NCBI GenBank assembly: GCA_937929945.1
Contig: CALFUK010000026.1
Span: 62,001 to 126,000, forward strand
From: an uncultured Saprospiraceae bacterium
Lineage (GTDB): Bacteria; Bacteroidota; Bacteroidia; Chitinophagales; Saprospiraceae
Reading direction: 5' to 3'
DNA length: 64,000 nucleotides
How positions within the stretch are numbered: the stretch's first letter is position 1; each line of letters opens with the position of its first letter. Both the position numbers and the translations under genes were made by a program. A model generated the notes under the pieces. It did not search any database. It had not been told where the DNA came from and was given only the letters and a program-made list of their open reading frames with translations. Below are positions 1,617 to 12,446 of the stretch, piece by piece.

Positions 1617-3389
1617 ATGAGTGCACCTGTTAGTCCCATTAGGCCACCTCTTATTGAAGGGCATAAAAGCTATCATGATATCACGAATGATCTAGTCAGT
1701 CCGACGGAGAGAGCCCCAGATAAGTCTTGGTTCATTGCCTTCTTGCTTTCGGTGACTGTACTTGGTTTTGGTATATTCTGTATTCTATGGACGATCTGGC
1801 ATGGTATCGGTACCTGGAACCTGAATCGAACCATTGGATGGGGTTGGGATATCACCAATTTTGTTTGGTGGATTGGTATCGGACACGCGGGTACCTTGAT
1901 CTCAGCGATCCTTTTACTCTTTAGACAAAAATGGAGAACAGGGGTAAACCGTGCCGCCGAAGCGATGACCATTTTTGCAGTGATGTGTGCTGGATTATTT
2001 CCACTGATACACATGGGGCGGATCTGGATGGCTATGTTCATCTTTCCGTATCCTAATACGAGAGGGCCCCTATGGCCCAACTTTAATTCACCGCTTCTTT
2101 GGGATGTATTCGCGATTAGTACTTACTTCACGGTATCACTATTATTCTGGTACACAGGCTTAGTGCCAGATTTTGCGACAGTTAGAGACAGAGCGAAAGG
2201 TATCAGAAGAAAAGTGTATAACTTTTTATCTTTTGGTTGGACAGGATCAGCGAAGCATTGGCAGAGATGGGAGGCATTATCATTGGTTTTAGCAGGTATT
2301 GCAACACCATTGGTCCTTTCAGTACACACGATCGTAAGTTTTGATTTCGCGACTTCTGTGATTCCAGGATGGCACACGACGATCTTTCCACCTTACTTCG
2401 TGGCGGGAGCGATCTTTTCAGGATTTGCCATGGTGCAGACCTTGATGATCATCACTAGAAAAATCTTAAATCTTCAAGAGTACATTACGATAGAGCACAT
2501 CGAGTCTATGAATAAGGTCATAGTGGCTACTGGTATGATAGTCGGAGTGGCATATTTGACGGAGTTATTCATTTCTTGGTATTCAGGATACATATATGAG
2601 CAGTTCGCTTTCTTCAATAGAGCTCTTGGCCCATATTACTGGTCCTATTTTGGTATGATGTTCTGTAATGTTGTATCACCGCTCTTCTTCTTTTCCAAGA
2701 AACTCAGACGTAATATTAAGTTCACCTTCTTTATGTCGATTCTGATCAACATTGGAATGTGGTTTGAACGTTTTGTGATTATTGCCACGACATTAGCGAG
2801 AGACTATTTACCATCCAGCTGGAGCTTCTACGTTCCGACTTGGGTAGAGATAGGTATCTACGTAGGTACTTTCGGATTATTCTTCACCTTATATTTATTA
2901 TTTGTGAGAGTAGCTCCTGTAGTAGCTATAGCAGAGGTTAAGTCAATTCTCAAAACAGCTGGTGATCAATACGTGGGCCCTAATGCGATCCACAGCCATC
3001 ACCACGACGATCATGATGATGATCATGGACACAGCGTTCCAGCACATGATGACGATCATAGCTACCAGGAAGCCAATCAGGCAGGAGCGACCAGCACTGC
3101 GACACATGCTGCTGCGACCAAGACGGGAATTATAGAAGATGACTTGACGAAGATAGAGGGCATTGGTCCAAAGATATCTCAGACGCTTAAGGATGCAGGC
3201 ATCTATACATTCGCATCATTACAGCAGTCTAAAGTGGAGGATATCCAAAGAATATTAGACAAGGCAGAAGGTAACTTCATGGGTAATAACCCAGAGTCCT
3301 GGCCAATACAAGCTAAGCTTGCCGCAGAAGGACTGTGGGCAGAGCTCGATCAATTGAAGGATAAATTAGACGGTGGCAGAATAGCCTAA
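1617..3389 (+). CDS. actC: Alternative complex III subunit C (NrfD-like), with His-rich stretch and HhH tail
   Basis: Multi-spanning NrfD/PsrC-family membrane subunit that provides a quinol site in alternative complex III. Roughly ten hydrophobic segments fill residues 38-435. The 590-residue protein is longer than the family core: residues about 459-485 are a His/Asp-rich stretch (HHHDDHDDDHGH), and residues about 503-590 form a separate soluble domain with the helix-hairpin-helix signature LTKIEGIGPKISQTLKDAGI. A similar small domain is known fused to other Bacteroidota proteins, such as some ribosomal L21 proteins; its role here is unknown. It sits between actB and actD with short gaps, in one operon. 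Confidence 0.93.
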   Translation: MSAPVSPIRPPLIEGHKSYHDITNDLVSPTERAPDKSWFIAFLLSVTVLGFGIFCILWTIWHGIGTWNLNRTIGWGWDITNFVWWIGIGHAGTLISAILLLFRQKWRTGVNRAAEAMTIFAVMCAGLFPLIHMGRIWMAMFIFPYPNTRGPLWPNFNSPLLWDVFAISTYFTVSLLFWYTGLVPDFATVRDRAKGIRRKVYNFLSFGWTGSAKHWQRWEALSLVLAGIATPLVLSVHTIVSFDFATSVIPGWHTTIFPPYFVAGAIFSGFAMVQTLMIITRKILNLQEYITIEHIESMNKVIVATGMIVGVAYLTELFISWYSGYIYEQFAFFNRALGPYYWSYFGMMFCNVVSPLFFFSKKLRRNIKFTFFMSILINIGMWFERFVIIATTLARDYLPSSWSFYVPTWVEIGIYVGTFGLFFTLYLLFVRVAPVVAIAEVKSILKTAGDQYVGPNAIHSHHHDDHDDDHGHSVPAHDDDHSYQEANQAGATSTATHAAATKTGIIEDDLTKIEGIGPKISQTLKDAGIYTFASLQQSKVEDIQRILDKAEGNFMGNNPESWPIQAKLAAEGLWAELDQLKDKLDGGRIA

Positions 3390-3400
3390 AAATAAAGTCG

Positions 3401-3919
3401 ATGGGTAAAACGAAAGAAGTCGTATACGGACTGTACTCTGATGAGCAAGACCTGCTCAAAGCAGTGAAAGCCGCTAAGTCTGGACATATGGAAATTCATG
3501 ATGTCTTTTCACCATTTCCAGTACACGGACTGGATCCGATCTTAGGATTAGAGGAGTCCAGATTGCACATTGCTGGTTTTATATATGGCATGATAGGAGC
3601 GCTGACTGCATTCTTGGGGATGACCTGGATATTCACGAAAGACTGGCCTATCATTTTCGGAGGTAAGCCGTACTGGTCAGTACCAGCGTTTATTCCGATT
3701 ACATTCGAGACGATGGTATTATTCGCATCCATTGGTATGGTCGTGACATTCTACATCGTATGTGGATTAGGTCCTGGGGTGACTAATGAGACACTGCACG
3801 ATAGACTGACAGATGACAAGTTTGCTATCGCATTTAATACGCATGATGTGACTGTTGATTCGGCCAAATCATTTTTTAGCCAGACCGGGGCTTCTGACGT
3901 AAATGTTAAAGTACTATAA
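3401..3919 (+). CDS. actD: Alternative complex III subunit D (DUF3341)
   Basis: Small membrane subunit of alternative complex III. The 172-residue length matches the DUF3341 family. Residues 1-50 form a soluble N-terminal domain, followed by two transmembrane helices (about 57-77 and 103-125) and a soluble C-terminal tail. It starts 11 bp after actC, and its TAA stop overlaps the actE start by one base (TAATG at 3917-3921), indicating translational coupling. ActD has no redox cofactor in characterised complexes and is thought to be structural. Confidence 0.92.
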   Translation: MGKTKEVVYGLYSDEQDLLKAVKAAKSGHMEIHDVFSPFPVHGLDPILGLEESRLHIAGFIYGMIGALTAFLGMTWIFTKDWPIIFGGKPYWSVPAFIPITFETMVLFASIGMVVTFYIVCGLGPGVTNETLHDRLTDDKFAIAFNTHDVTVDSAKSFFSQTGASDVNVKVL

Positions 3920-4797
3920 TGAACACATTCAATAAGCTATTTTTTGGATTCTTACTGGTCATGTTTCTGACGCTTCAGTCATGCCAGCAGCCCACTGGGA
4001 ACTCCACAGGATCTGAGTATATGCCGGACATGGCTCACTCCATAGCATACGAGTCTAACTACTACAATTATTACTACAATAATACCTGGGGTAGTCAAGA
4101 TGAGTATTACAAATACGCACAACCTCGTCTACCTGTTGCTGGCACCATTGCTAGAGGAGGCTCTAATCCTGATGCAGATCAGAAGGTTGTCCCTTATTAC
4201 TACGGTAATACAGAGGAGGAGCGGACCAGAGCTACGAATGAATTGATCAAAAGCCCTGTGAAAATCACAGATGCTGGTCTCAAGCAGGGAAAAGAGCTCT
4301 ATAATACATTCTGTGGTATATGTCATGGCGAAAAAGCTGATGGAGCTGGGTACTTAGTCAGAGACGATGGCGGTAAATATCCAGTCCAGCCGGCCATATT
4401 AAATTCAGATGAATTCAAGGCCGCCAGTAATGGAAGATATTATCATGCCATCATGCACGGTAAGAATTTGATGGGAGCATACAAAGGCAAAATCAACTTT
4501 GAAGAAAGGTGGCATGTTATACATTACATCAGATCACTGCACGCGAAGGAAGATGGCAAGGTGTATAATCAATTTGAAAACACCCTAAATTCTTATGATG
4601 AGCCAGCAGGGGAGATCGCCCTTGTATCTCATGATGATATGCATGATGCACATCAAAGCGTAGACCATCACGAAGGAGACCATCACGACGGAGACCACCA
4701 TGATCAAGACCATAGTGACGAATACCATGAGGGTCATGATGATGATCATGGTCACGAAGATCATAAACAAGGAGAATCACACGACAGCGGTCATTAA
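3919..4797 (+). CDS. actE: Alternative complex III subunit E, monohaem cytochrome c lipoprotein
   Basis: Membrane-anchored cytochrome c of alternative complex III that passes electrons on toward the oxidase. The N-terminus is a lipoprotein signal ending in LQSC with lipidated Cys22. The haem motif CGICH is at residues 132-136, with a distal candidate ligand Met in the HGKNLMG region. The last about 55 residues (235-292) are an extreme His/Asp tail (blocks such as HHEGDHHDGDHHDQDH), not part of the usual cytochrome fold and likely to bind divalent metal or protons; this is inference. It overlaps actD by one base and precedes actF by 20 bp. Confidence 0.93.
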   Translation: MNTFNKLFFGFLLVMFLTLQSCQQPTGNSTGSEYMPDMAHSIAYESNYYNYYYNNTWGSQDEYYKYAQPRLPVAGTIARGGSNPDADQKVVPYYYGNTEEERTRATNELIKSPVKITDAGLKQGKELYNTFCGICHGEKADGAGYLVRDDGGKYPVQPAILNSDEFKAASNGRYYHAIMHGKNLMGAYKGKINFEERWHVIHYIRSLHAKEDGKVYNQFENTLNSYDEPAGEIALVSHDDMHDAHQSVDHHEGDHHDGDHHDQDHSDEYHEGHDDDHGHEDHKQGESHDSGH

Positions 4798-4817: not shown

Positions 4818-6101
4818 ATGAACGAATATGTAATGCCTACAAGTCAAAGAACACTCTTCCTCGGAGGTATGGTTCTGGGCATCGTATGCTTAGCTTTATC
4901 TTGGTTTGTCGGGGCGGATGAGTTTCACACCAGATTCTGGACGAACTTATTACACAATACAGTATTCTTTACGGGAATATCCTTCATGGCCCTTTTCTTT
5001 ATATGTGTTTGCATCACTGCTTGGGCAGGATGGTACACTTTATTCAAGAGGATTTGGGAAGCCTTATCTATGTTTATGATCATCGGATTCGTAATCATGG
5101 TGATCATTGGTTTAGGTAATTATTTTGGTTTTCATCACCTCTACCATTGGAATGATGCCGATTCGATCCTAAATGACAAAATCATCAATCATAAATCAAA
5201 ATTCTTAAACAAGAACGTTTATTTCATCGGTGGATTAATTGTCATGGCTGGTTGGTATATATGTGCTATGAAGCTGCGATCATTATCACTCGCTGAAGAT
5301 AGAAATGGTGACGACTCCTACGAGCATCACCATAAGGCAAGAGTATGGGCAGCTGGATTTTTACCATTTGCAGGGTTTAGCAGCGCCTTTATTATTTGGC
5401 AGTGGATCATGTCTTTAGATGCACACTGGTACAGTACGATGTTCGCATGGTATAGTGGAGCCAGTTGGTTTGTATCGATGATCGCTCTGACGATCTTGAT
5501 TATCATCTACATGAAGTCAAGAGGGTATTACGAGCAGATCACTAACGAGCATGTACACGATTTAGGTAAGTTTTTATTTGCCTTTAGTATATTTTGGACC
5601 TACTTATGGTTTTCTCAGTTCATGTTGATCTGGTATGCCAATGTAGGGGAGGAGACAGTCTATTTTAGACACAGAATGGATAATTATCCAGTATTATTTT
5701 ATGGTAACTTATTGATCAACTTTGTGATGCCTTTCTTTGTTCTAATGAGGAACGATACTAAAAGGAAGTTTGGTTCAGTAGGTTTTGTCGCAGCTATCGT
5801 CTTATTTGGTCACTGGTGGGATTATTTCCTCATGATCAAGCCAGGCGCATTGCACACAGCGCATGAATTAGCAGGACATGGACATGGTGGAGATCATGGA
5901 GCAGGAGCACACGCTGGAGAAGCAGTAGAACATGCAGCTCATTTCGTTTCAGGATTTACGCTGCCAGGTTTATTAGAGATCGGAGTATTCATAGGCTTTT
6001 TATCAGGCTTTTTATACTTCGTATATGTGAAGTTATCTCAAGCGCCTCTGGTGCCTGAGAATGATCCGTATTTAGCTGAGAGTATACATCATCACGTTTA
6101 A
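4818..6101 (+). CDS. actF: Alternative complex III subunit F (quinone-binding membrane subunit)
   Basis: Second large membrane subunit of alternative complex III, paralogous to ActC, with about ten transmembrane helices over 427 residues. Helices are clear near residues 13-31, 45-70, 80-100, 133-152, 185-205, 215-235 and toward the C-terminus. Between the last helices, residues about 347-375 hold a His/Gly/Ala-rich loop (HGHGGDHGAGAHAGE). It follows actE by 20 bp and precedes coxB by 16 bp, so the quinol oxidoreductase and the oxidase are probably one transcript, consistent with the supercomplexes known for this pair. Confidence 0.92.
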   Translation: MNEYVMPTSQRTLFLGGMVLGIVCLALSWFVGADEFHTRFWTNLLHNTVFFTGISFMALFFICVCITAWAGWYTLFKRIWEALSMFMIIGFVIMVIIGLGNYFGFHHLYHWNDADSILNDKIINHKSKFLNKNVYFIGGLIVMAGWYICAMKLRSLSLAEDRNGDDSYEHHHKARVWAAGFLPFAGFSSAFIIWQWIMSLDAHWYSTMFAWYSGASWFVSMIALTILIIIYMKSRGYYEQITNEHVHDLGKFLFAFSIFWTYLWFSQFMLIWYANVGEETVYFRHRMDNYPVLFYGNLLINFVMPFFVLMRNDTKRKFGSVGFVAAIVLFGHWWDYFLMIKPGALHTAHELAGHGHGGDHGAGAHAGEAVEHAAHFVSGFTLPGLLEIGVFIGFLSGFLYFVYVKLSQAPLVPENDPYLAESIHHHV

Positions 6102-6117
6102 AAAATTACATTCATAG

Positions 6118-7635
6118 ATGACTACTATTGTAATCATATTAATTTTAATTGTAGCTGCTGTCATCCTATTTCAGATAGGCAAGCTGACAGAGTTAGCTTC
6201 AAAAATCAGAGGCGAAGAAGAAGTGGAGCTGAAGAAAAATGACAGGACAGCATTATACTGCCTGCTTTTCTTAATCGGCTTCATGATATACTGTATCTGG
6301 ACAGGCATCATTTATAAAGATATCGTCCTCTGGTATGGGCCTCACACCTCCGCTTCAGAGCACGGGGGCTTATTGGACAGTCTGTTCAATGTGACAGCCT
6401 TTTGGACAGGTATTGTCTTTGTGTTGACTCACGTCTTATTGTTCTGGTTTGCATTTAAATACAGAAAGAAGAAAGGAGTACACCAAGCTTTCATCACTCA
6501 CAATAATACTTTAGAGTATGTCTGGACAGGTATACCAGCTGTTGTACTCGTCTATTTAGTAGCGAGTGGCCTCGTCGTCTGGAATGAAGTCATGCCTGAT
6601 GTAGACCCCAATGAAGATTATTTAGAAATAGAAGCGACTGGCTATCAATTCGCTTGGGATATCAGATATCCTGGCCCAGACGGTAAATTAGGGACGAAGA
6701 ATTATAAGCTGATTGATTTAGGTTCTAATTCATTAGGAATGGACTTCACCGATGAGAAGACTCATGATGATATAGTGATAGGAACACCTGAGTTTCTTTT
6801 ACCTGTCGGTCAGAAAGTGAGAGTTAGAATTACCTCAAAAGATGTACTTCATAACTTTGACTTGCCTCACTTCAGAGTGAAGATGGATGCTATACCTGGT
6901 ACGCCGACTTACTTCATATTCACGCCTACGATTACCACAGAGGACTATCGCAAGCGGCTCAAAGGCCACCCAGATTGGGAAGTGCCTGCTGATGAAGAAG
7001 AGCCAGATGGCTTGAAGCGATGGGAAGCTTTCGAATACGAATTAGCTTGTGCAGAGCTATGTGGGAAGGGACATTACAGTATGAAGCGTATCCTAAGAGT
7101 CGTCACCCAAAAAGAATACGATCAGTGGTTAGCGAAGCAGCAGTCATTCTACCTGACAAATGTCAGAAATACGGTTAATGATCCCAATGATGCGAGCCTA
7201 CTAAAAATTGAGATTGCGAATAGAGCGGATGAGTTCTTAGCAGCTGTAGATCAGGCCATATCCACTCCAGATGATGTGTCAGATGATCTCATCAACTTAG
7301 AGCATGTATTTTATAATACGGGGTCTGCTGAATTGAAAGAAGTATCAGAGTACGAACTGGACAATGTAGCCAGTGTGCTCAATAAATATAAGCAGGTGAA
7401 TGTAGAGCTGGGTGGGCACACCGATAATACAGGAGCTGCTGATGCGAATCAGGCACTATCTCAGAGCAGAGCTGAGAGTGTGAGAAATTACTTAGTGAAT
7501 AAAGGGATCAGTCCCGAGAGATTAATTGCTGTTGGTTTTGGCCAGAATAATCCGGTCGACACTAACGATACCGACGAAGGAAGACAGAATAATCGACGAA
7601 CAGAAATGAGGATTTTAACAAACAACAATCTCTAA
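6118..7635 (+). CDS. coxB: Cytochrome c oxidase subunit II fused to OmpA-like domain
   Basis: CuA-bearing subunit of an aa3-type oxidase that accepts electrons from cytochrome c. Hydrophobic helices lie near residues 3-20, 45-64, 92-113 and 133-155, giving two more than the usual pair. The cupredoxin domain follows, with the CuA ligands in CAELCGKGHYSM (about residue 311) and the upstream His in HNFDLPHF. From about residue 395 a complete OmpA C-terminal domain is fused (GHTDNTG and NQALSQSRAESV), including the Asp and Arg that hold diaminopimelate in OmpA. The domain is on the periplasmic side, so it may tether the oxidase to peptidoglycan. At 505 residues it is far longer than plain CoxB. 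Confidence 0.95.
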   Translation: MTTIVIILILIVAAVILFQIGKLTELASKIRGEEEVELKKNDRTALYCLLFLIGFMIYCIWTGIIYKDIVLWYGPHTSASEHGGLLDSLFNVTAFWTGIVFVLTHVLLFWFAFKYRKKKGVHQAFITHNNTLEYVWTGIPAVVLVYLVASGLVVWNEVMPDVDPNEDYLEIEATGYQFAWDIRYPGPDGKLGTKNYKLIDLGSNSLGMDFTDEKTHDDIVIGTPEFLLPVGQKVRVRITSKDVLHNFDLPHFRVKMDAIPGTPTYFIFTPTITTEDYRKRLKGHPDWEVPADEEEPDGLKRWEAFEYELACAELCGKGHYSMKRILRVVTQKEYDQWLAKQQSFYLTNVRNTVNDPNDASLLKIEIANRADEFLAAVDQAISTPDDVSDDLINLEHVFYNTGSAELKEVSEYELDNVASVLNKYKQVNVELGGHTDNTGAADANQALSQSRAESVRNYLVNKGISPERLIAVGFGQNNPVDTNDTDEGRQNNRRTEMRILTNNNL

Positions 7636-7645
7636 AATTAAATTA

Positions 7646-9490
7646 ATGTCAGATATCATAACATACGATGAAAAAGTTCTGATAGAGGAAAATGGTTTTG
7701 ACGACCACTTTCACGATCATCACCATGAGGATAAGTATAAGTCTAACTTCATTAGCACTTATATTTTCAGCATGGATCATAAGATGATAGCCCGACAATT
7801 CCTGATTACAGGAATGATATGGGCGATCATTGGTGCTGCTATGTCTATCATATTCAGACTTCAGCTGGGTTTTCCAGACGAAAGCTTAGCATGGCTGAAG
7901 CCGCTGCTCGGTAAGTGGATCACCATTAATGCAGAGACAGGTATTGGATCATTACAGCCTGAGTTCTATTACGCATTAGTTACTATGCATGGTACCATCA
8001 TTGTCTTCTTTGTATTGACAGCAGGACTCAGTGGTACATTTTCTAATTTACTGATTCCACTACAGCTGGGAGCCCGTGATATGGCCTCTCCATTCTTGAA
8101 TATGCTGTCATACTGGTTCTTCTTTTTAGCTAGTGTGATCATGTTCTATTCCTTATTTCTAAGTACTGGCCCATTTTCAGGTGGCTGGACGGCATATCCA
8201 CCGCTCAGTGCACTGCCTCAAGCCTCTATTGGTTCGGGAGCTGGGATGACCTTGTGGACTGTGAGTTTAGTATTGTTTGTCGTGTCAGTTCTCCTTGGAG
8301 GGATTAATTACATTACCACTGTTTTGAATCTTAGGACGAAAGGGATGACCTTTTGGAGAATGCCATTGACTATTTGGGCTTTCTTCGTGACTGCGATCCT
8401 GGGACTTTTATCATTCCCAGTATTAGCATCAGGATTTTTCCTTTTGATGTGTGATAGAGGATTAGGGACGAGTTTTTATTTAAGTGAAATATTTGTGGGC
8501 GGAGCAGCATTAGATTTTGCTGGAGGTAGCCCTGTACTATATCAGCATTTATTCTGGTTCTTAGGACATCCAGAGGTTTATATTATTATCCTGCCAGCGA
8601 TGGGTCTGGTATCTGAGGTCATGGCTGTCCACGCGAGAAAGCCGATTTTTGGATATAAGTTTATGGTCTATTCCATATTGGCCATTGGATTTCTATCATT
8701 TATAGTATGGGCTCACCACATGTTTATGTCAGGGGTGAATCCTTTCATTTCGAATTTCTTTGTGGTGTTCACGCTGATTATCGCGGTACCATCAGCCATT
8801 AAGGTGTTCAACTGGATTGCGACATTATACAAGGGTAATCTGAGGCTCAATACGCCTATGCTTTTCTGTATTGGATTCGTATCCATGTTTATCTCAGGTG
8901 GATTGACAGGTGTATTCTTAGGTAACTCAGCGATTGACATTCAGATGCACGATACATACTTCGTCGTAGCTCACTTTCACATTGTGATGGGTATTGCTGC
9001 TTTCTTTGGTATGTACGCGGGTGTGTATCACTGGTATCCGAGAATGTTTGGCAGATTCATGAATGAGACCATAGGTAAAATTCACTTCTGGGCGACGCTG
9101 ATTGGCGCTTACGCTATATTTTGGCCAATGCACTACTTAGGCCTCGCAGGAGTACCAAGAAGATACTACAGGTTTGATAGTTTTGACGCATTTAGTTCTT
9201 TTTCTTCTATGAATCAGTTCATCACTATCGCAGCTATAGTTGTCTTTTTTGCACAGATCCTGATGGTTATTAACTTCTTCTACAGTATGTACTACGGTAA
9301 GAAGATGACAACGAAGAATCCATGGGGTGCCTCCACATTAGAGTGGACAACTCCGATCAATGCTGGTCATGGCAACTGGGATGGTAATCTTCCTGTGGTA
9401 CACAGATGGCCATATGATTATGGTAAGAATGGTCAGGACTTCATTCCCCAGATAGCCCCCATGGCTGAAGGAGAAGAAGATTCACATTAG
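7646..9490 (+). CDS. coxA: Cytochrome c oxidase subunit I
   Basis: Catalytic subunit of the haem-copper oxidase, binding haem a and the haem a3-CuB centre and pumping protons. Of 614 residues, twelve helices are expected. The active-site motifs are intact: GHPEVY with the cross-linked His-Tyr pair (about residue 307), WAHHMF with the two CuB histidines (about 355), and HDTYFVVAHFHIV with the haem ligands (about 434-447). The Glu in HPEVY and the Lys in AIKVFNW (about 385) point to an A1-type enzyme with D and K channels. The N-terminus carries a short His/Asp run (DDHFHDHHHED, residues 19-29). It starts 11 bp after coxB. Confidence 0.97.
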   Translation: MSDIITYDEKVLIEENGFDDHFHDHHHEDKYKSNFISTYIFSMDHKMIARQFLITGMIWAIIGAAMSIIFRLQLGFPDESLAWLKPLLGKWITINAETGIGSLQPEFYYALVTMHGTIIVFFVLTAGLSGTFSNLLIPLQLGARDMASPFLNMLSYWFFFLASVIMFYSLFLSTGPFSGGWTAYPPLSALPQASIGSGAGMTLWTVSLVLFVVSVLLGGINYITTVLNLRTKGMTFWRMPLTIWAFFVTAILGLLSFPVLASGFFLLMCDRGLGTSFYLSEIFVGGAALDFAGGSPVLYQHLFWFLGHPEVYIIILPAMGLVSEVMAVHARKPIFGYKFMVYSILAIGFLSFIVWAHHMFMSGVNPFISNFFVVFTLIIAVPSAIKVFNWIATLYKGNLRLNTPMLFCIGFVSMFISGGLTGVFLGNSAIDIQMHDTYFVVAHFHIVMGIAAFFGMYAGVYHWYPRMFGRFMNETIGKIHFWATLIGAYAIFWPMHYLGLAGVPRRYYRFDSFDAFSSFSSMNQFITIAAIVVFFAQILMVINFFYSMYYGKKMTTKNPWGASTLEWTTPINAGHGNWDGNLPVVHRWPYDYGKNGQDFIPQIAPMAEGEEDSH

Positions 9491-10425: not shown

Positions 10426-11004
10426 ATGGCTTACATGGTATTCAATACTTCTGATAACAGCAGAATCAATCCTCAAAAATTTGCGCTCTGGTCAGCCATG
10501 GCGAGTATCGTAATGATGTTTGCGGCACTATCAAGTGCTTACATTGTCAGGCAGGCTCAGGGCAACTGGCTCGAATTTCAGCTGCCGTCCATGTTTTACG
10601 TCAGCACCATCGTGATCTTACTAAGTAGCTTGACGCTTCATAACTCTTATCGCAGTTTTCTTGCGGGTAAAGAGAAGCAGTACAAGTCTCTTTTGGTGGC
10701 TACTTTTGTCTTAGGCTTAGGATTTATCGTAGCCCAATACTTAGGCTGGCAGAGGCTTTATGCTCTTGGTGTAGATTTGAAAGGAAATCCTTCGGGATCA
10801 TTTATATATGTCATCACATTTCTTCATGTGGCGCACGTCTTAGGTGGTATAGCCTGTTTGATTGTAGCCATGTTTCACGCATTTGCACTCAAATTTAATG
10901 TGACGAAGCGAAGAAAACACAGATTTGAATTAGTGGTACACTACTGGCATTTTGTAGACTTATTATGGGTCTATCTGCTGGTGTTTTTAATGATTAGTAA
11001 ATAA
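10426..11004 (+). CDS. Cytochrome c oxidase subunit III, short form
   Basis: Haem-copper oxidase subunit III family protein of 192 residues with five helices (near 20-40, 55-75, 90-108, 128-148 and 170-190). The family Glu/His patterns are visible in FLHVAHVLGGI and VVHYWHFVDLLWVYLL, the latter being the typical C-terminal signature. It starts immediately after ctaB. It is the five-helix (CyoC-like) version; a second, longer subunit III gene follows directly. Both are probably part of the same oxidase. Confidence 0.92.
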   Translation: MAYMVFNTSDNSRINPQKFALWSAMASIVMMFAALSSAYIVRQAQGNWLEFQLPSMFYVSTIVILLSSLTLHNSYRSFLAGKEKQYKSLLVATFVLGLGFIVAQYLGWQRLYALGVDLKGNPSGSFIYVITFLHVAHVLGGIACLIVAMFHAFALKFNVTKRRKHRFELVVHYWHFVDLLWVYLLVFLMISK

Positions 11005-11026
11005 CAGAGATTATATTTTAATAAAA

Positions 11027-12010
11027 ATGGCTACAGAAACTGCTACCCATCACGACACAGATCAGCATGATCACCACGATCATCATGTTGATATGACTAC
11101 CGCAGATTGGGATGGTGGTGCCCCAGTATTCAAAGCAAGCTACGGCAAGCTGATGATGTGGTACTTCCTTCTATCTGATGCATTTACATTTGCAGGATTT
11201 TTGATTGCGTATGGAGCTCTTAGGTTCAGTATGCCGTCGTGGCCTGTACCTGATTTTGTATTTAGATTATTTCCCTTCGCAGGAGATACGGTTTTACCAC
11301 TGATATTTGTGACCGTCATGACCTTCGTCTTACTATTCAGCTCCTACACTATGGTGAGGGCAGTACAAGAAGGACACCGAGAGAATCAACGAGGAGTGGC
11401 CGCATGGATGTTTCTCACCATCATCGGTGGTGCAGCGTTCCTTGGATGCCAGGCTTGGGAGTGGGCTACGCTGATCGGTAAAGAAAAGATGTCAGTGACC
11501 AAGAATCCCTTCGGTACACACGTCGAATCAGGTGCCTACTTGGATGCGAGTGGGAATCCATCTGACGAAGTCTTCGAGCCAGGGGCTTCTTACCTCATGC
11601 ATCACATTTCACATCATGCACATGGTGATGATCACGGTGGTGACCACGCAGATGATCATGGAGACGCACACGATTATGAAGTCGGCGGCATCTACAAAGA
11701 AGCTGAAGTGGATGATAGAGGTCTGATACATCGGAAGTACGTGGTGACATCGGGCGCAGATAAGGGGGTAGTGAAAATGGAGAGTTATGGGCCCAAGGCT
11801 TTTGGGGCATTGTTCTTTTTTATCACTGGATTTCACGGGTTTCACGTCTTTTCTGGGGTTGTCTTCCTCATTATCATCTTTGTGAATGTGATGAGTGGGC
11901 TGTACGTCGAACGAAAGAATGGCTATGAAATGGTCGAAAAAATAGGCTTGTATTGGCACTTTGTCGATTTGGTTTGGGTGTTTGTTTTCTTAGTATTTTA
12001 TCTATTATAA
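11027..12010 (+). CDS. Cytochrome c oxidase subunit III, long form with His-rich insert
   Basis: Second subunit III family protein, 327 residues. The core helices and the C-terminal signature YWHFVDLVWVFVFLVFYLL are clear. It differs from its 192-residue neighbour by a His/Asp-rich N-terminus (HHDTDQHDHHDHHVD, residues 7-21) and a large loop after the third or fourth helix (residues about 155-265) containing HHISHHAHGDDHGGDHADDH (about 188-207). The loop makes up most of the extra length. A tandem of short and long subunit III is common in Bacteroidota. It lies 22 bp after the short form and 13 bp before the subunit IV gene. Confidence 0.92.
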   Translation: MATETATHHDTDQHDHHDHHVDMTTADWDGGAPVFKASYGKLMMWYFLLSDAFTFAGFLIAYGALRFSMPSWPVPDFVFRLFPFAGDTVLPLIFVTVMTFVLLFSSYTMVRAVQEGHRENQRGVAAWMFLTIIGGAAFLGCQAWEWATLIGKEKMSVTKNPFGTHVESGAYLDASGNPSDEVFEPGASYLMHHISHHAHGDDHGGDHADDHGDAHDYEVGGIYKEAEVDDRGLIHRKYVVTSGADKGVVKMESYGPKAFGALFFFITGFHGFHVFSGVVFLIIIFVNVMSGLYVERKNGYEMVEKIGLYWHFVDLVWVFVFLVFYLL

Positions 12011-12023
12011 TTCAGAATTTATT

Positions 12024-12446
12024 ATGGCACACGATTACGAAAAAAGTAAAAGTATAGCGCTCAAGACCATCTTACTGCTGGCCTTCATAACTGTGATAGA
12101 GGTTATCATAGCTTTAGCTGGTAAGGGATATATCATCAAGGGGTTTCATGCACCAGTTATGTTGATGGGTTTACTGATGATTGCGCTCAGTCTATACAAG
12201 GCAGTTAAGATTATATTCGAGTTCATGCACATGAGTTATGAGGTGCCGGCTTTTGCTAAGTCCGTCCTTCTGCCCATGGGGCTCTTAGTCTGGGCAGTGA
12301 TAGCCTTCATGCAGGAAGGTAGCAGTTGGAAGAAGCGAAGAGAATTCGTCGATGACAAAAACAAGGGCATAGAGCAAATTAAAAAGGATGATTCAGAACA
12401 AACAGGATCATTGATCAAAGAATTAGATGAAAGTGATTTTCATTAG
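12024..12446 (+). CDS. Prokaryotic cytochrome c oxidase subunit IV
   Basis: Small membrane subunit of the oxidase, 140 residues, with three helices (about 14-32, 42-62 and 75-95) and a charged C-terminal tail rich in Lys, Asp and Glu. Matches the prokaryotic COX4 (CoxD/CyoD-like) family by length and by the AFITVIEVIIAL and FMHMSYEVP segments. It is the last gene of the respiratory operon: a strong intrinsic terminator begins 25 bp after the stop. Confidence 0.85.
   Translation: MAHDYEKSKSIALKTILLLAFITVIEVIIALAGKGYIIKGFHAPVMLMGLLMIALSLYKAVKIIFEFMHMSYEVPAFAKSVLLPMGLLVWAVIAFMQEGSSWKKRREFVDDKNKGIEQIKKDDSEQTGSLIKELDESDFH

Follow-up and report, generated by a model that had tools for sequence, protein, structure and literature searches.

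The window, a 64,000-nucleotide stretch of DNA from an uncultured bacterium whose nearest relatives are Saprospiraceae, opens with a single operon on the + strand, in which the genes of an alternative complex III (ACIII) and those of an aa3-type cytochrome c oxidase follow one another in the order actB (end), actC–F, coxB, coxA, cyoE, two coxC-type genes and coxD. The 3′ part of actB (positions 2–1591) enters from before the window in a frame open from base 2 and encodes Fer4 domains. It is followed by the NrfD-like actC (1617–3389; PF03916, E 1.6e-22), actD (3401–3919), actE (3919–4797), which encodes the ACIII mono-haem lipoprotein, and actF (4818–6101). Both ActD and ActF have a homologue at the same position in all complete operons compared, ActF matching no Pfam family above threshold. 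ActE gives cytochrome c Pfam matches only, and the Pfam search finds no OmpA domain in the window's own copy, whereas ActE of certain relatives carries one. On the 3′ side of coxB, coxA (oxidase subunit I, 7646–9490; TIGR02891, E 5.7e-181) starts 10 bases beyond the coxB stop, and further downstream (10426–12446) the open reading frames of the two coxC-type genes and of the coxD-type gene are arranged as in relatives.

Several subunits of the operon carry additional segments. ActC has a C-terminal helix-hairpin-helix extension (PF14520, E 1.5e-6), a DNA-binding-type fold located at residues 508–546 of this integral membrane subunit and preceded by a His-rich linker. Long ActC frames of 598–617 aa in L049, L058, L064, L125, L137 and L146 point to the same extension in some relatives. 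Additionally, His/Asp-rich low-complexity tails or inserts (HHEGDHHDGDHHD...) occur at the ActE C-terminus (4580–4797) and in ActF and CoxC2, as well as in relatives, and possibly bind metal.

Domain architecture of CoxB

The coxB gene (6118–7635, + strand) is a single ATG-to-stop frame of 505 aa encoding cytochrome c oxidase subunit II continued by an OmpA domain, with Pfam matches to COX2_TM, COX2 and OmpA. Four predicted membrane helices occupy residues 2–158 (6121–6591) and are placed at 2–31, 33–70, 81–114 and 130–158 in the AlphaFold2 model, with the COX2_TM match (PF02790) at residues 86–148 scoring 32.3 bits against a cut-off of 22.8. The periplasmic CuA domain spans residues 169–349 (6622–7164) and matches COX2 (PF00116) over residues 171–262 with 40.8 bits against a cut-off of 22. 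All CuA ligands, H245, C311, E313, C315, H319 and M322, are present and are invariant among 50 fused homologues, and the pattern C...C...H..M recurs in 203 of 203 operons. CoxB, which has extra N-terminal helices, scores 135.4 bits against TIGR02866 (E 1.8e-39), below the NCBIfam cut-off of 147.7, which is a naming threshold and not a defining feature. A partly helical linker (residues 350–392, 7165–7293; helix 363–382 in the model) leads into an OmpA-type, predicted peptidoglycan-binding domain at residues 393–500 (7294–7617). The Pfam core of this domain (residues 398–493, 7309–7596) covers profile positions 1–98 of the 98 in PF00691, with E 3.3e-25 and 88.7 bits against a cut-off of 27.2. 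The initial annotation had described CoxB as running on past its CuA domain into a full OmpA domain, and the complete profile within one uninterrupted frame bears this out.

In the AlphaFold2 model of CoxB, built with 50 homologues (mean pLDDT 81.7), the four membrane helices and the CuA domain are followed by a helical linker and an OmpA fold. In structure comparison, residues 68–345 resemble Paracoccus subunit II (7atn_B, Z 15.1), while residues 377–500 match the C-terminal domain of Capnocytophaga OmpA (5wtp_C) with Z 18.4 and rmsd 1.8 over 117 residues. Because it lies C-terminal to the periplasm-facing CuA domain, the OmpA domain is placed in the periplasm. Across the operons with this fusion, the spacer between the last CuA ligand (Met) and the start of the OmpA domain measures 64–94 residues (median 69), a length that should let the domain reach the wall.

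A joining of two genes through a sequencing or assembly error, which the initial annotation had raised against its own reading, is refuted and retains practically no probability. Specifically, the window frame has no stop near 7290, and the search for the same fusion among CoxB homologues, also proposed there, finds it in 89 distinct operons from independent assemblies, with the isolate genome of Portibacter marinus among the carriers.

Conservation of the predicted wall-binding site

The OmpA domain of CoxB retains the two residues predicted to bind diaminopimelate (DAP), namely Asp436 in the motif HTDNTG (7423–7425) and Arg451 in LSQSRAES (7468–7470), both of which had been pointed out in the initial annotation. 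These residues are D and R, respectively, in 89/89 OmpA domains borne by CoxB and in 24/24 borne by ActE, and are thus kept in 113/113 OmpA domains fused to either subunit. The same pair also occurs in seven other OmpA domains of the window's genome, which served as controls. In Acinetobacter baumannii OmpA, diaminopimelate is contacted by Asp271 and Arg286 (PMC5974059), and D436 and R451 of CoxB match this pair by motif and by spacing, the two residues standing 15 apart in both proteins. On the ligand side, MurE of the window's genome contains the motif DNPR. This is the motif of MurE enzymes that add meso-DAP, so that a DAP ligand should exist in the host wall, which is predicted from this motif to be of the DAP type.

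Some OmpA-like domains and folds dock proteins instead of the wall, and the CoxB domain could by analogy hold some other partner in the periplasm or outer membrane, such as an electron carrier or an outer-membrane protein. The invariance of both DAP-site residues across all 113 fused domains, as in the control domains of the genome, argues against such a role, which we regard as improbable.

Sequence identity is distributed unevenly along CoxB. Between congeners, the OmpA domain is 79–81% identical, against 74–81% for the rest of CoxB, and the linker is 52–64% identical; across all CoxB comparisons, linker identity amounts to 38–64% versus 53–81% for the flanking domains. Relative to the more distant L203, identity reaches 59% in the OmpA domain, 68% in the CuA domain and 53% in the membrane part. 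A conserved OmpA domain joined through a variable linker is the pattern of a functional domain carried on a spacer.

Alternation between CoxB and ActE as carrier

A CoxB match is found in 140 of 150 genomes of the family; in about 100 of these 140 the frame is long enough to hold the fusion, and almost all of the long frames examined bear the OmpA domain. The exception is a Saprospiraceae clade (L043, L155, L156, L157 and L177) with a different C-terminal CoxB extension of 110–150 residues, for which Pfam gives no match in the two members scanned; in L157, this non-OmpA extension occurs together with an OmpA domain on ActE. One genome of the same genus (G002) holds two complete ACIII–cox operons, L198 and L049/L224, both with the OmpA domain on CoxB.

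Both genes are complete in 203 distinct operons. Among these, the OmpA domain resides on CoxB in 89, on ActE in 24, on both in 0 and on neither in 90, proportions that are not prevalences since the loci were sampled non-randomly and partly picked by CoxB frame length. Within the order (168 operons), the corresponding counts are 89, 24, 0 and 55, with 12.7 operons expected by chance to carry both; this mutual exclusivity is strong in the raw counts and not significant after correction for relatedness, which leaves only 5–10 independent contrasts. Sampling of other orders of the class yielded 35 operons, none with an OmpA domain on CoxB or ActE. The ActE-borne domains belong to L038–L042, L079, L086, L093–L095, L129–L134, L142, L144, L146, L152, L154 and L157, together with L081 and L096, two of the 24 that are read across runs of N (assembly gaps); in L040, a run of N covers the haem motif. 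Across all 203 operons, the OmpA profile matches no gene besides coxB and actE, except in L081 and L096, where the match belongs to the actE–OmpA gene split by a run of N. Some linkers between the haem motif and the OmpA domain of ActE (L079, L086, L040 and L096) extend to as many as 247 residues and are rich in His/Asp or Ala/Lys/Glu repeats, resembling periplasm-spanning spacers.

The CoxA tree, which covers 107 operons, needs 22 changes of carrier state; even if only well-supported branches are counted, the CoxB label changes at least 10 times and the ActE label at least 5 times, with gains and losses pooled. In the tree of OmpA domains, the CoxB domains of families f8, f18 and f19 cluster with L285, a separate f19 OmpA protein (100% support), unlike those of Saprospiraceae. 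A single origin of the CoxB-borne domain is weakly rejected by this tree and by the AU test of a single clade (p 0.047), in a domain that is short and leaves many forks weak. Several separate acquisitions of the domain are therefore likely, as judged from these phylogenies. L285 (genome G054) measures 444 aa and has a single predicted membrane segment. Its OmpA domain is most closely related to the one on CoxB in these three families, which makes it a possible donor.

The patchy occurrence and the many relatives without the domain would also suit a selectively neutral segment, gained by recombination and kept by chance. This explanation is very unlikely, given a domain that between congeners is conserved like the rest of CoxB, whose predicted binding residues are intact across a diverse family and which has apparently been gained several times on the same complex. 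A wall tether would be dispensable, because both fusions are absent from many Saprospiraceae (23/116 operons) and from most of the order's other families.

A putative wall tether for the ACIII–aa3 supercomplex

We propose, with a probability of roughly two in three, that CoxB binds the DAP of peptidoglycan through its C-terminal OmpA domain and thereby anchors the aa3 oxidase, together with the ACIII–aa3 supercomplex that the operon encodes, to the cell wall. Anchoring of the oxidase had been put forward in the initial annotation, and the anatomy of CoxB, the periplasmic side, the conserved predicted binding residues and the predicted meso-DAP wall all fit it, while the binding itself is what we infer. 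The domain would grip diaminopimelate at the end of its spacer, and ACIII and the aa3 oxidase would form a supercomplex in this organism. ACIII has been isolated together with its oxidase, aa3 in Flavobacterium johnsoniae, and also in Rhodothermus marinus (PMC8552683), the former being a species in which ACIII genetics are established. Anchoring either one of CoxB and ActE would therefore hold the whole assembly. The carrier could change between the two for the same reason, and the best reading of the alternation is that it matters little which periplasmic subunit bears the domain. The more cautious suggestion of the initial annotation, that ACIII too is perhaps anchored, accordingly gains support, since related operons whose CoxB is without the domain often have it on ActE. 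That the carrier switches between two subunits belonging to one supercomplex is also an indirect sign that, in these bacteria, ACIII and the oxidase function as one unit.

Extended to the order as a whole, this proposal would mean that in one order of Bacteroidota the ACIII–aa3 complex was tied to the wall several times independently, through the same kind of domain on either of two periplasmic subunits, to which we give slightly better than even odds. If true, wall-tethered respiration would be a trait under selection, whichever subunit is the carrier. The usual picture has respiratory complexes drift within the membrane. Anchoring the terminal oxidase, or the complex that partners it, to the wall would instead fix their position, and the presumed benefit would lie in holding or orienting the complex, possibly also in fixing the membrane–wall distance. 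How electron transfer relates to cell-wall organisation would become directly testable, with close relatives providing natural comparisons with and without the domain.

The main rival accepts binding to the wall and assigns the domain to envelope architecture, with an abundant respiratory complex acting as an extra inner-membrane anchor that sets membrane–wall spacing and has no respiratory effect. Any abundant periplasm-facing inner-membrane protein would serve this purpose, which fits the exchange of carrier between CoxB and ActE, and the window's genome encodes about 20 further OmpA-domain proteins, so that wall anchoring would be common in these cells. Within these operons, however, the domain appears only on two subunits of one supercomplex, and does so repeatedly, which leaves this explanation unlikely, though less so than the other alternatives.

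Relative to known systems, the ACIII–aa3 of F. johnsoniae and the ACIII–caa3 of R. marinus share with the window's operon the succession of actB–F and cox genes, a CuA-type CoxB and a mono-haem lipoprotein ActE, and the OmpA domain distinguishes the window's CoxB from those of the 35 operons of other orders. CoxB combines four predicted helices, a CuA domain and then a periplasmic OmpA-type domain on a subunit of an inner-membrane complex. In this respect it parallels MotB/MotS and the type VI proteins TssL/TagL, which are among the best structural matches of its OmpA domain and are likewise inner-membrane proteins anchored to the wall through a C-terminal OmpA-type domain; these, however, belong to force-generating or secretion machines and not to an electron-transfer complex. 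The C-terminal domains of Pal and OmpA (5wtp, 3td3 and 4g4v) share the fold and the Asp/Arg pair, but belong to outer-membrane proteins, whereas CoxB is part of an inner-membrane oxidase.

A precedent is the photosystem I chain PsaB of PDB entry 7f4v (7f4v_aB), whose source organism we take to be Gloeobacter. It is a core subunit of an energy-converting complex with a C-terminal OmpA-type domain at residues 754–866 of 872, and differs in being photosynthetic, cyanobacterial and confined to a single subunit, whereas the CoxB/ActE case is respiratory with two possible carriers. The open literature searched, which excludes subscription papers, contains no description of an OmpA fusion on a respiratory oxidase or ACIII, and nothing on the wall domain of Gloeobacter PsaB. 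Wall-tethered respiration had initially been called a new organising principle, which is too strong, as PsaB, MotB/MotS and TssL/TagL already have OmpA-type domains. Fusion to an energy-converting complex is thus known from PsaB, and what appears new, within the literature searched, is its recurrent, carrier-switching occurrence on a respiratory complex.

The caa3-type CoxB with a fused cytochrome c likewise bears an additional periplasmic domain, but there the extra domain carries electrons, whereas the OmpA domain is a non-redox, predicted wall-binding fold. The unusually long CoxB frames read in other orders of the class (L158, L161, L163 and L168) were rejected as candidate OmpA fusions. 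No ACIII genes are recognised near coxB in these loci, and their CoxB proteins are caa3-like with the cytochrome c at the N-terminus.
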